64,000 nucleotides of DNA from Spirochaetales bacterium (GTDB lineage Bacteria; Spirochaetota; Spirochaetia; Treponematales; UBA12059), in NCBI GenBank assembly GCA_016928955.1, contig JAFGJV010000010.1, positions 1 through 64,000 of the forward strand. The letters are read 5' to 3'. The notes beneath the pieces were generated by a model that saw only the letters and a list, made by a program, of their open reading frames with translations, ran no database searches and was not told the DNA's origin. Shown one piece after another: positions 17,612-63,475 of the stretch. Each line of letters begins with the position of its first letter. Positions within the stretch are counted from its first letter, which is position 1. The position numbers were made by a program, and so were the translations under genes.

Positions 17612-18009
17612 CAGCTTTCTGTCCGGGAGGGCAACCCCGCTCGGGTTTCCCTCCCGGCCCCACCCTTCCTGAGCAAGAGCATCGAGTTTTCCAACATCCT
17701 GGTCAACCTGCATGTTCATGCACGCTTGAGCATAAACCCCAAAAACGCCCTCGCTCCGCTTCTCAGTCCCCGTCGTTCCTGACTATATTGGTAAGGCCCC
17801 GATCCCAGGGGCCGTCGGGCGGGCTCCTAGCCGGTCTGACGCGACTAGACGCCGCCGTTGGCGGCGGGGCCTCCACAAGCCCATCGATCTTTTTCCCACC
17901 CTACCCCGAGTTCCGCCGCCCTACAGCCTGAGCAGATGGCCATGGGCCGGAACCGATGGGCTGGTGCCGAAAGGCGCCAACCTCCCGCGTTTGGAAAGGA
18001 GTACGGGTC
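17612..18009. other. 398-bp leader region upstream of the P5C dehydrogenase gene
   Basis: No gene. It holds hairpin repeat copy 1 (17617-17672), a TATATT box near 17783 with a weak -35, and several stems on the plus strand: GGCCCC-GATCCCA-GGGGCC (17795-17813), CGCCGCC-GTT-GGCGGCG (17850-17866), and GGTGCC-GAAA-GGCGCC just before the gene. It does not match any riboswitch consensus that I can recall. Confidence 0.5.
17617..17672 (+). repeat. 56-bp hairpin repeat, copy 1
   Basis: CCGGGAGGGCAACCC, short loop, GGGTTTCCCTCCCGG, then CCCCACCCTTCCTGA. It is nearly identical to 19657-19712 (a handful of differences, mostly in the loop). It starts five bases after the zinc peptidase stop, so it may act as a terminator or 3'-end stabiliser, though no T-run follows. 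Confidence 0.85.
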
Positions 18010-19653
18010 ATGTACGATTCCCTCATTCTTGGGGCGGAGCCATCGCCGGCCCTGCCACCCAACGAGCCGGTCAAGGCTTACGCCCCCGGCTCTCCCGAGC
18101 GCTTGGCCCTGGAGGCCGAGCTCAAATCCATGATGGCCAACCCACCGGAAATCCCCTTGGTCATAGGCGGCAAGGAGGTGCGAACCGGCCGTCTGCGCGA
18201 CATCCGGGCGCCCTTTGACCACAGCCTGGTCCTTGGCCGCTGGCATGAGGCCGGCGCGGCCGAAGCGGCCATGGCCGCAGACGCAGCCGCCAAAGCGGCC
18301 ACTGACTGGGCCCGGACGCCGTATAGGGAGCGGGCCGCCGTGTTCCGCAAGGCCGCCGCTCTTATATCCGGTGGCTGGTGGAAAAAACTCGCCGCTGCCA
18401 GCATCCTGGGCCAGTCCAAAAACTACCACCAAGCGGAAATAGACGCCGTGTGCGAGACGGCGGACTTTTTCCGCATCAACCCAGCCCTGGCGGAAAGGCT
18501 CTACGCCGAGCAGCCCCGCTCTGACGAATTCGAGACCAACATCATGGACTACCGGCCGCTGGAGGGCTTTGTATACGCGGTCAGTCCTTTCAATTTTACG
18601 GCCATAGCGGCCAATCTTCCCAGCGCGCCCGCCCTGATGGGCAACGTGGTGGTGTGGAAGCCCGCGTCCACCTCGGTTCTGTCCAATTGGTACCTGGCCC
18701 AGCTGTACCGGGAAGCTGGCCTGCCCCCCGGCGTCATCAACTTCTTGCCCGGCGCATCCAGGGACATCACGGCCGCCCTCATGGCCCGGCCGGACCTTGC
18801 CGGTATCCACTTTACCGGTTCGACCGCCGTGTTCAATTCCCTGTGGAAAACGGCTGCGGAAAACCTGTCAAGCTACCGCGCCTATCCCCGCATCGTGGGC
18901 GAGACCGGGGGCAAGGACTTTGTGTTCGTCCACCCGGACGCCGACCTTGAGGCCGCCGTCACTGCCTGCGTGCGCGGCGCCTTTGAGTACCAGGGACAGA
19001 AATGCTCGGCCGCCAGCCGCCTGTACCTGCCTCGTTCCCGCAAGAAGGAATTCATGGACCGCTTCCTGGCAGAGCTCAAGGCGGTAAAAATGGGCTCTCC
19101 GCTGGATCCGTCAAATTTTGTCAACGCCGTCATAGACAAAGGCGCGTTCGACACCATAGGCGCTTATGTGGACCGGGCCAAGGCCAACCCTTCCTGCTCC
19201 ATCATGGCCGGAGGCTCCCGCGATTCGTCCACGGGCTGGTTCGTGGAACCCACGGTCATCATGACCGAGGATCCCAGGGCCGAGCCCATGGTAGAGGAGA
19301 TCTTTGGCCCCGTGCTCACGGCCTACGCCTATGACGATTCGGACCTGGACGCAGCCTACCGCCTGGTGGACCAAGGCGCGCCTTACGCCCTGACGGGGGC
19401 CGTGTTCGCCCGCGAACGGGCGGACATAGACCATGCCCTGGTAGCCCTGCGCAACGCCGCCGGCAATTTCTACATCAACGACAAGCCCACGGGCGCCGTA
19501 GTGGGCAGGCAGCCCTTTGGCGGAGCCAGGGCGTCTGGCACCAACGACAAAGCGGGTTCCTTCCTCAACCTGGTGCGCTGGACCAGCCCCCGGGCCATCA
19601 AGGAGAACATGGCCCCGCCCCGCGACTGGCGCTATCCCTTCCTGGGTACATAA
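18010..19653 (+). CDS. 1-pyrroline-5-carboxylate dehydrogenase (L-glutamate gamma-semialdehyde dehydrogenase)
   Basis: A 547-residue NAD(P)-dependent aldehyde dehydrogenase that oxidises glutamate semialdehyde/P5C to glutamate in proline catabolism. It resembles the long, single-function P5CDH group: the catalytic Cys block EYQGQKCSAASRLYLP, the NAD-contact FTGSTAVFNSLW and the Glu block RIVGETGGKDFVF are intact, followed by the EEIFGPVLTAYAYDD segment. The start at 18010 is chosen for its AAAGGAG site; the upstream ORF extension is in the leader. No proline dehydrogenase is adjacent, so proline degradation would need a distant partner. Confidence 0.9.
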   Translation: MYDSLILGAEPSPALPPNEPVKAYAPGSPERLALEAELKSMMANPPEIPLVIGGKEVRTGRLRDIRAPFDHSLVLGRWHEAGAAEAAMAADAAAKAATDWARTPYRERAAVFRKAAALISGGWWKKLAAASILGQSKNYHQAEIDAVCETADFFRINPALAERLYAEQPRSDEFETNIMDYRPLEGFVYAVSPFNFTAIAANLPSAPALMGNVVVWKPASTSVLSNWYLAQLYREAGLPPGVINFLPGASRDITAALMARPDLAGIHFTGSTAVFNSLWKTAAENLSSYRAYPRIVGETGGKDFVFVHPDADLEAAVTACVRGAFEYQGQKCSAASRLYLPRSRKKEFMDRFLAELKAVKMGSPLDPSNFVNAVIDKGAFDTIGAYVDRAKANPSCSIMAGGSRDSSTGWFVEPTVIMTEDPRAEPMVEEIFGPVLTAYAYDDSDLDAAYRLVDQGAPYALTGAVFARERADIDHALVALRNAAGNFYINDKPTGAVVGRQPFGGARASGTNDKAGSFLNLVRWTSPRAIKENMAPPRDWRYPFLGT

Positions 19654-55442: not shown

Positions 55443-59810
<4,368 letters not shown>

Positions 59811-59851
59811 GCGGTCTCCCCTTTAACTCGGGTCATCTGCGAAAGAATGGG

Positions 59852-59970
59852 AACCACGGAGGCGCGGAGGCGCGGAGGCGCGAAGCGAGGAATAGAAGAT
59901 TTGTAGGCACAGTCTTGCACTTCATCTATCCGCACTACTCTTTTCTCCGTGTCTCAGTGTCTCCGTGGTT
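59852..59970. repeat. Inverted-repeat element between rpoB and rpoC
   Basis: The left edge AACCACGGAGG... and right edge ...CTCCGTGGTT are inverted copies that bound a 119-bp unit. The left side has three tandem copies of GCGGAGGC-like octamers (CGGAGGCGCGGAGGCGCGGAGGCG); on the opposite strand the right side reads AACCACGGAGACACTGAGACACGGAG. This looks like a short palindromic element seen in many environmental bacterial genomes, from memory. It fills most of the rpoB-rpoC gap. Confidence 0.8.
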
Positions 59971-59977
59971 GTTTTAC

Positions 59978-62900
59978 CTAAAAGTTCGAGCCCTGCTTGC
60001 TGATCAGCTCCTCGTCGCGCTCGGTCAGCGGGATGGGCTTATTCTTGGCGTCGAAAATCCTCATGTCCAGGCCAAGGCCCCGGAGCTCCTGCACCATCAC
60101 GTTGAAGGCCTCGGGGATACCGGCCGCCGTGTGCGGCTCGCCCTTGACGATGGCCTCGTACACCTTGGCGCGGCCGGTCATGTCGTCCGACTTGATGGTC
60201 AGAAGCTCCTGCAGGGTATTGGCTGCGCCGTACGCCTCCAGGGCCCACACTTCCATTTCGCCAAGGCGCTGGCCGCCGAACTGGGCCTTTCCGCCGAGCG
60301 GCTGCTGGGTGACCAGCGAGTAGGGGCCGGTGGAGCGCGCGTGCATCTTGTCGTCCACCAGGTGGTGCAGCTTCATGAAGTATATGATGCCCACCGTGAC
60401 CGGGTTCTGGAAATGCTCGCCCGTGCGGCCGTCGCGCACCGGGGTCTTGCACGACCCGGGCAGGCCCGCCTGCTTGAGCTTCTTCTCTATCTGTTCCTGG
60501 TCCGGGCTCTGGAACACCGGCGAGCTGAACCACTCGTCCAGGGTGGTGGCGGCCCAGCCAAGCTCGGTCTCCATGATCTGGCCGATGTTCATGCGGGAGG
60601 GCACGCCCAGCGGGTTGAGGCATATGTCCAGCGGGGTGCCGTCGTCCAGGTAGGGCATGTCCTCCATGGGGAGGACGCGGGCGACGATGCCCTTGTTGCC
60701 GTGGCGGCCGGCCATCTTGTCGCCTTCCTTGAGCTTGCGCTTGGCGGCGATGAGGACCTTGACCACTTCCTCCACGCCGGGAGACAGGTCGTCGTTGGCC
60801 GAGCGCTTGAGCCTCTGCACGTCTATGACCGTGCCCTCTATGCCGTGCGGCACGCGGAGGGACGTGTCGCGCACGTCCTTGGCCTTCTCGCCGAAGATTG
60901 AGTTCAGGAGCTTGAATTCGGGCGTGGTCTCGGTCTCGCTCTTAGGCGTGACCTTGCCCACCAGGATGTCGCCGGCGTTGACCTTGGCGCCGATCATGAT
61001 GATGCCTTCCGAGTCCAGGCTGTCCAGGCTCTTCTCGCTGGTGTTGGGTATGTCCCGGGTGATGCGCTCGGGGCCCAGCTTGGTCTCACGCACCTCGGTC
61101 TGGAATTCCTTGATGTGCACCGAGGTAAACAGGTCGTCGCGCACCACGCGCTCGGAAATGAGGATGGCGTCCTCGTAGTTGTAGCCGTTCCAGGGCACAA
61201 AGCCGGCCAGGATGTTGCGGCCCAGGGCCAGCTCTCCGTCCTTGGTGGCCGGGCCGTCTGCTATCACCTGGCCCTTGAGGATCTTCTCGCCGTGCTTGAC
61301 GATGGGCCGCTGGTTGTAGCAGGTATCCTGGTTGGTCCGCTGGTACTTGATGAGCAGGTACTCGTCGCGTGCGTGCTTGTCCTCGTCGGGCTTGATGACC
61401 ACGCGGAAGGCATCCACGTAATCCACGGTGCCGGAACGCTTGGCCTTGATGAGCACGCCCGAGTCGTACGCCGTCTTCAGTTCCATGCCGGTACCCACTC
61501 GCGGCGGGTCGGTAAAGAGGAGGGGCACGGCCTGCCTCTGCATGTTCGAGCCCATGAGGGCGCGGTTGGCGTCGTCATGCTCCAGGAAGGGAATGAGGGC
61601 GGCCGATACGGAGATGATCTGCTTGGGCGACACGTCCATGTACTGGATTTCCTTGGGCCCGCGGGTGGTGTAGTCGCCCTGGTGCCTGACGGAAACCTGC
61701 TCTTCCTGGAAATGGCCCTTGCCGTCTATGCGGGCGCTGGCCTGCGCTATGTAGTAGCGGTCCTCGTCCATGGCGGACAGGAACTCGATGTCGTCAGTGA
61801 CGCGGCCGTTGACTACTTTGCGGTACGGCGTCTCGAGGAAACCGTACTCGTTGACCGTGGTGTATGTGGCCAGCGACACGATAAGGCCGATGTTCGGGCC
61901 TTCCGGCGTCTCGATGGGGCACATGCGACCATAGTGGGTGTAGTGGACGTCGCGCACCTCGAAGCCGGCCCGATCGCGGGACAGGCCGCCCGGGCCCAGG
62001 GCGTTGAGGCGACGCTTGTGGGTGAGCTCGGCCAGCGGGTTGACCTGGTCCATGAACTGCGACAGCTGGCTGGACCCGAAGAATTCCTTGATGGCCGCGA
62101 CCACCGGCTTGATGGATATGAGGTCCTGGGGCCGGATTGTGTCCGTCTCCTTGAGGCTCATGCGCTCCTTGGCGATGCGCTCCATGCGGCCGAAGGCGCT
62201 CTTCATCACGTTGGACAGGAGCTCGCCCACCGAGCGTACGCGGCGGTTGCCGAGGTGGTCGATGTCGTCCAGGTTGTTCTCGCCGTAGTACACGGTCATC
62301 AGGTACTTCATGGTGGCGATGATGTCGTCGCGGGTGAGGGTAAAGTCCTCGACCGGAGCCGCGTAGCCGAATTTCTTGTTCAGCTTGTAGCGGCCCACCT
62401 TTCCGAGATCGTAGCGGCGGTTGGAGAAGAACAGCGAGTGAAGGTCGCGCTCGGCGTTCTCCACCGTGATGGGCTCGCCGGGCATGAGGGTCGCGTACAC
62501 GGCAGCCAGGGCGTCGGCCTTGGTGGGCTCGTCCTGGTCGGGATCTTCCTTGACCAGCTTGATGTCCTCGCGCTCAAGGCAGTTGAGGATCATATTCCAG
62601 TGCAGTCCGTCCTTGTGCTCAAAGTCCACCACGTCTATGGCCTTGACGCCCAGGGTGACCAGTTCGTCCACGTCATGCAGGTGGATCTTGTCGCCGGCGC
62701 GGAACACGCGTTTTTTCTCGCCGTCCTGCTCCACGTACACGCTCTTGGCAAGCACGCGGTTGACGGCGCGTTCCCGGTCGTCGCGCTTGTCGGACAGGGG
62801 CAGGTGCTCGGTCTTGTGGAAGGCGGCAATGATGTCTTCCCTGGTTTCCAGGCCGATGGAACGCAGGAACATGCTGCCCAGGATGCGCTTTTTGCGGTCG

Positions 62901-63475
62901 ATCTTGGCGTAGATCAGCTCTTTCTTCTGGTCGATCTCGAATTCCAGCCAGGAGCCGCGGTAGGGGATGATCCGGGCGGAGTACACGCCCTTCTCGTGGC
63001 AGAAAATGACGCCAGGAGAACGGTGGATCTGCGACACCACCACACGCTCGGCCCCGTTTATGATGAAGGTGCCGCGGTCGGTCATCAGCGGGACATCGCC
63101 CAGGTAGATGTCTTTCTGGCGGATCTCTCCGGTCTTCTGGAAAACCAGGTTGATGCGCGCCTTCAGGGGTACCGCGTAGGTAAGGCCCTTCTGCTTGCAG
63201 TCAAATTCCGAGTACTTGATGGCGCCCTCGTCCAGGGTATAGTGGTCGCCGTACTCGAGGATCATGTCGCCGTTGGGGCTCTCGATGGGAAAGGTTGTGC
63301 GGAACACTTCCTCGAGCCCGTACGGGTCGGGGGCGTGGCCCTGGGCCAGCCTTGAGCGCTGGAGAAAGCGCTCGTAGCTCGACACCTGGATGTCTATGAG
63401 GTCGGGAAGCTCTATGGCTTCCTTATAATCCTTGCCGACGTAGGTCCGGGAGATCTTGTGTTCTGTGTAGGCCAT
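59978..63475 (-). CDS. rpoB: RNA polymerase beta subunit
   Basis: A 1165-residue subunit. The Rif region reads [18 protein letters not shown] followed by [18 protein letters not shown]; the Asn (residue 491, codon at 62003-62005) is at the position of E. coli Ser531, and the Asn518 equivalent is Val. The nucleotide-binding [16 protein letters not shown] and C-terminal [23 protein letters not shown] are normal. It follows rplL after a 343-bp gap with an attenuator-like hairpin. Confidence 0.98.

Follow-up and report, generated by a model that had tools for sequence, protein, structure and literature searches.

The described systems that come closest to the element discussed here include short repeats that lie between genes. 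MITEs of the ERIC, Correia and QMITE type are about 100-170 bp long, have terminal inverted repeats of 23-29 bp, occupy intergenic positions, are transcribed and occur in many copies (PMC10969869); RNase III is reported to cut Correia elements in mRNA at their terminal repeats (reviewed in PMC10969869). REP elements measure 20-40 bp and bear GTAG or CGTC tags (PMC3733652). The IVS of Coxiella combines a terminal stem of about 28 bp with tandem heptamers and a small ORF, and is excised by RNase III (PMC4990558). The locus treated here is the rpoB-rpoC gap of a Spirochaetales bacterium, in a window of 64,000 nucleotides (contig JAFGJV010000010.1, positions 1 to 64,000, the whole stretch that was analysed). 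The segment that fills most of this gap probably belongs to a dispersed family of inverted-repeat elements associated with the protein GxxExxY, as a copy that lacks the gene and is decaying. The main new result lies outside the window: arms of this kind bracket GxxExxY genes in most of the cases sampled.

Both rpoB (1165 codons, 59978-63475) and rpoC (1455 codons, 55443-59810) are encoded on the minus strand, and 119 of the 167 nt between them belong to the core element at 59852-59970. An earlier note on this DNA had described a palindromic unit with particular edges and internal 8-bp tandem repeats that takes up most of the gap, and it proved exact: AACCACGGAG begins at 59852, CTCCGTGGTT ends at 59970, and the tandem repeats are present in both arms. 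Arm 1 (59852-59877, plus strand) reads AACCACGGAG GCGCGGAG GCGCGGAG, that is, three tandem 8-nt units each made up of a 7-mer and one spacer base, and arm 2 (59945-59970) reads AACCACGGAG ACACTGAG ACACGGAG on the minus strand; one arm contains three copies of a 16-nt sequence at a spacing of 8, and the other contains TCTCCGTG twice. The arms, of 26 nt each, are complementary at 21 of 26 positions (81%), with five mismatches, and none of the 5,000 dinucleotide-shuffled versions of the gap equalled their score of 13.5, the highest value being 13.0. The 67-nt interior (59878-59944) is unique in the genome, matches no other fetched locus and shows no remnant of GxxExxY. Beyond the core, GAAAGAATGGG (59841-59851, plus strand) is the probable outer end on the rpoC side, a match, weak at this locus, to the consensus AAGAAnnn that precedes AACC in the family (72 elements). 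On the other side a 7-nt spacer, GTTTTAC (59971-59977), which may be a decayed outer end, leads to the rpoB stop codon (59978-59980). The ribosome-binding site of rpoC, AAAGGGGAGA (59815-59824, minus strand), precedes the ATG at 59808-59810 and lies outside the element, about 27 nt away.

When the rpoBC unit was searched against the rest of the genome (2.87 Mb in 59 contigs), about six further elements were found that are complete or nearly so, along with several half-copies. They are alike in their arms only, which consist of tandem 7-mers of the form CACNGAG plus one spacer base, and their interiors differ. One of these elements encloses a GxxExxY remnant (C14:29585-29854; L008 1501-1770) that is frameshifted, internally deleted and devoid of the catalytic end of the protein (tblastn 1e-12 to 9e-14); at the same locus four relatives (G001, G010, G013 and G017) have kept intact, arm-bracketed GxxExxY genes. 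The C14 element looks like an intermediate between a gene-bearing form of 475-490 bp and a gene-less form of 100-130 bp, the latter being predominant among the 72 elements measured. Searches of this genome for an intact GxxExxY gene gave none, the broken copy having been found by reading the arms, and searches for an IVP gene likewise gave none. Another element of the genome, at C45:2907-3123, is interrupted by a different palindromic repeat, GGGAACCTCTAAAAAC ... TTTTTAGAGGTTCCC, which occurs several times (on C45 and C56; L006, L005 and L029) and is absent from the window.

In relatives within the family, GxxExxY (PF13366) genes sit between inverted arms of the same type, as in the arrangement AACCACGGAGACACGGAGTCACGGAG - gene - CTCCGTGCCTCCGTGTCTCCGTGGTT at locus L061 of genome G004. 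For 14 of 15 family genes the bracketing exceeds the 99th percentile of the control scores. The same holds for 63 of 78 GxxExxY genes drawn from many phyla, compared with about 1% of controls; the mean arm score is 24.2 at these 78 loci, while 540 control positions taken from within them average 9.4. The roughly 80 loci behind these figures were not sampled at random but are the top matches to a single conserved peptide pattern. Most of the genomes are draft MAGs, genes around elements are simple ORF calls, and the control sets are modest in size. The earlier note had likened the inverted-repeat unit to a repeat common in environmental bacteria. That it is a dispersed repeat of such a kind, lodged between rpoB and rpoC, is upheld by the further copies in the genome, by many more in relatives, and more widely by arms of this family that surround genes for the nuclease-fold protein in many phyla. 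Among named GTDB genomes, the best GxxExxY match is in 'Spirochaetes bacterium isolate SZUA-370' (L124) and is identical to the protein of G004. In the open-licence PMC literature no paper was found that describes PF13366, TIGR04256, the arm sequences or rpoB-rpoC repeats, or that gives an account of GxxExxY arms, function or arm pairing; the mentions of GxxExxY found there are in passing.

The loci have in common an arm scheme of tandem CNCNNAG-like units with one or two spacer bases, and within this scheme the arm dialect tracks the GxxExxY protein tree, requiring 30 changes where shuffled assignments require 53.3 (0 of 200 shuffles as low), a clustering to which near relatives contribute. 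Two genes of G006, a member of the window's family, have CGC-type arms (L067 and L077) and fall in the tree among CGC-type genes from other phyla; L062 and L068 form a separate ACAGGAT clade. A gene and its arms thus seem to move jointly. Arm hits in family genomes range from control level up to 315, against 74 for the reversed pattern (G013). Where a family genome has a CACRGAG-type GxxExxY, the remnant of the present genome being counted, it also has an excess of arms (10 of 10 genomes), versus 6 of 13 genomes without such a gene (Fisher one-sided about 0.007, uncorrected for relatedness). Genome G009, which is 96% complete, has many arms and no GxxExxY that could be found, and there are other such genomes; since some arm-rich genomes show no GxxExxY, the gene may be a passenger and not the motor. 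At L161 and L196 (Chlamydiae MAGs) and L192 the GxxExxY arms are very long and built of repeated larger units, with alignment scores of 145 and 75.5 recorded for such arms, as if the arrays expand.

GxxExxY (PF13366 / TIGR04256) is a small protein with residues of the PD-(D/E)XK type. E23, D63, E73, K75 and Q87 are invariant in alignment A1, and E73 and Q87 are nearly so in the wider alignment A2. The structure model is confident (pLDDT 97.4), and the solved folds nearest to it are those of SSO0001, a Cas4 protein, and of lambda exonuclease, the scores being modest (best E 1.8e-3, TM 0.54); no sequence relatives were found in the PDB at E <= 0.1. The model indicates a PD-(D/E)XK nuclease fold.

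The true ends of the elements lie about 10 nt beyond AACC/GGTT, with the consensus AAGAAnnnAACC ... GGTTnnnTTCTT in 72 elements. Most elements (56 of 72) are within 30 nt of a stop codon that faces them from a long reading frame, as are 14% of control non-coding positions, and the rpoBC copy, which begins 7 nt past the rpoB stop, fits this placement; the orientation of the neighbouring genes is like background. No target-site duplication was detected in the 72 elements, the mean best direct repeat being 0.92 compared with 1.36 after shuffling. New insertions were absent from 133 kb aligned between G018 and G004, and from the comparison of G013 with G016 except at rpoBC. Two apparent extra elements (L230 and L222) turned out to be detection artefacts, and a small call unique to G004 (L266, 164-232) is close to a contig start. 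Current movement appears to be slow or absent, nearly all elements being common to sister species. The idea that the repeat is spreadable, also put forward in the earlier note, is borne out only in part: the genome is without an intact GxxExxY gene and, at some 22 comparable positions in the two sister-species pairs, only rpoBC differs clearly, by a gain or a loss.

Outside the family, the rpoB-rpoC gap of 69 genomes of the class is mostly 8-20 nt (median near 14), and these arms are missing from all the long gaps among them. Long gaps in other spirochaetes of the class often hold unrelated strong hairpins or palindromes (L046, L057, L311, L312, L321, L323 and L345). Within the family, an element of the same architecture occupies the gap in six genera (g1, g2, g5, g6, g9 and g10), in the arm dialects CACGGAG, CACAGAG, CACGAAG and GGATAAGA and with interiors that also differ. 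It is absent from g3, g4, G007 and G012, and short hairpin-free gaps of 8-20 nt occur in the family too (G003, G012, G002, G011 and G016). The gap of G006 holds another kind of hairpin, rich in GC. In G019 (L038) another palindromic repeat, GC-rich as well, has seemingly been written over the ancestral element, of which the outer ends alone remain. The element is present in G013 and absent in G016, with flanks about 96% identical on both sides; the 134 nt missing in G016 correspond to the element plus its extended ends, and a loss is at least as good a reading of this difference. Because interiors are recognisably the same within genera (G018/G004/G021, G001/G010 and G009/G017), copies at rpoBC evidently stay in place for long. 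The RpoBC tree has many weak forks and fits about four losses or about four gains of the element, and the best reading is that in this spirochaete family an element has either been in the rpoB-rpoC gap for long or come back to it repeatedly. A solitary copy in a gap conserved as it stands among relatives, the outcome that the earlier note had set against its own proposal, is the opposite of what was found on both counts, since there are further copies and the gap varies in its interior and in the very presence of the element.

These observations bear on four other explanations, of which a chance palindrome peculiar to the rpoB-rpoC gap can be set aside almost completely: the unique interior is what it would lead one to expect, but it is contradicted by the further copies, by the shuffles and by the same architecture in relatives. 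An ordinary MITE, moved by a DDE or Y1 transposase and with GxxExxY as a chance passenger, has more in its favour, the elements being small, non-coding and multi-copy, with terminal inverted repeats and intergenic sites, much as ERIC or Correia (PMC10969869). Against it stand the missing target-site duplications and the tracking of GxxExxY relationships by arm sequence across phyla, which is hard to account for with a passenger; Y1 (RAYT) as mobiliser was rejected, as Y1 genes are missing in several genomes that carry elements (the present one, G004, G010, G017 and G020). On a non-exhaustive search for DDE transposases with matching ends, a conventional MITE is regarded as unlikely.

The other two explanations concern the RNA. 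In the predicted fold of the gap RNA the arms pair to give a single long hairpin (-53.2 kcal/mol), at a z of about -1.8 to -1.9 against shuffles, where relatives' copies mostly reach about -3.7 to -7.6; the low value is attributed to decay of this copy. No T run of an intrinsic terminator follows the stem, the minus strand reading CCCATTCTTTCGCAG, and no Rfam family matches the element at its gathering score. The only such match within the window is a Moco riboswitch (RF01055, 55.8 bits, 17892-18017, plus strand). That a hairpin is kept by selection to adjust how the rpoBC message is processed, how stable it is or how polar its expression is, with the repeats as raw material, is suggested by the strong hairpins of relatives, by occupation of the same gap in six genera with different dialects, and by the other hairpins of G006 and some other long-gap genomes of the class. 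Yet hairpin-free gaps of 8-20 nt are the rule in the class, the same elements stand after many other genes, and the copy at hand has a low z, five mismatches in its 26-nt stem, no T run and a ribosome-binding site left free; moreover, arm substitutions between G009 and G017 break pairs without compensation, which speaks against strong selection for a function in the RNA, and this reading is considered improbable. An IVS-like insert, whose stem RNase III would excise to leave separate rpoB and rpoC messages and a harmless insert, is possible though it would not be our expectation; it concerns the RNA step only and is compatible with membership in the GxxExxY family. It draws on the anatomy shared with the Coxiella IVS, on the cutting of Correia elements noted above, and on the co-directionality of GxxExxY genes with both neighbours (41 of 60, against 21 of 42 in the background, a weak difference). 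It also draws on the inverted tandem arms found around IVP-type genes of the order, where 6 of 10 exceed the threshold set by controls. Against it, the stem of the rpoBC copy is imperfect and lies in mRNA, not rRNA. The 23S_rRNA_IVP four-helix genes of relatives stand between arms of other sequence (GGTGAATA, GTGAGGG and GTAGCAG; L091, L092, L094, L095, L098 and L100).

Membership in the GxxExxY family remains the preferred explanation: the rpoBC element has inverted tandem arms of the CNCNNAG type, and arms of this type bracket GxxExxY in relatives. In its full-length form the family has a single GxxExxY gene enclosed by inverted arms, each built of tandem CACNGAG-type heptamers; the short forms of about 100-130 bp lack the gene and retain the arms, the defining part of the family. 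The arms are probably the recognition site of the encoded candidate nuclease, and GxxExxY may cut DNA there and so drive, or once have driven, the spread of the elements. Short forms would derive from gene-bearing ones by deletion, and may be moved in trans or be relics. Copies would settle just past stop codons, where a hairpin is presumably least harmful. If rpoB and rpoC share a message, as gene order implies, the element should be transcribed with them, and a stem-loop would be expected between the two cistrons in the cell; it may well be tolerated rather than useful, because the rpoC ribosome-binding site is left free. The copy in this gap should be immobile, because the genome is without an intact GxxExxY gene.

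A wider proposal is offered tentatively and with less than even confidence: that GxxExxY and its heptamer arms constitute an unrecognised class of minimal mobile elements across many phyla, in which one single protein of the Cas4/lambda-exonuclease fold copies or moves its own hairpin to sites after stop codons, the gene-less forms, that of rpoBC included, being mobilised or fossil offspring. GxxExxY is annotated in many environmental genomes and has so far been a family in name only, with no role assigned to it; the pairing with arms suggests that its job may be to recognise and propagate them, and a common type of intergenic repeat is now linked to a candidate enzyme. The rpoBC copy illustrates that such repeats can become established well inside an essential operon.

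Compared with the known systems, the rpoBC family resembles ERIC, Correia and QMITE elements in size, terminal repeats, frequent position just after genes, transcription and copy number. It differs from them in its lack of target-site duplications, in arms made of tandem heptamers, and in a gene-bearing form that carries a gene with a PD-(D/E)XK nuclease fold, as modelled, in place of a transposase. With the 23S rRNA IVS and its S23/IVP four-helix protein it shares a long terminal stem, tandem heptamers near an ORF and the presence of one small ORF (PMC4990558); unlike the IVS, it is found in protein-coding operons, its protein is GxxExxY, and the rpoBC copy is gene-less. As in the REP/RAYT (Y1) system, dispersed, gene-less intergenic palindromes are linked to a gene that is flanked by the same repeat, but the family elements are larger than REP, at about 115 bp (119 nt, with AACCACGGAG ends, for the rpoBC copy). 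As for GxxExxY (PF13366 / TIGR04256), the full-length elements carry a member of this protein family as their gene.
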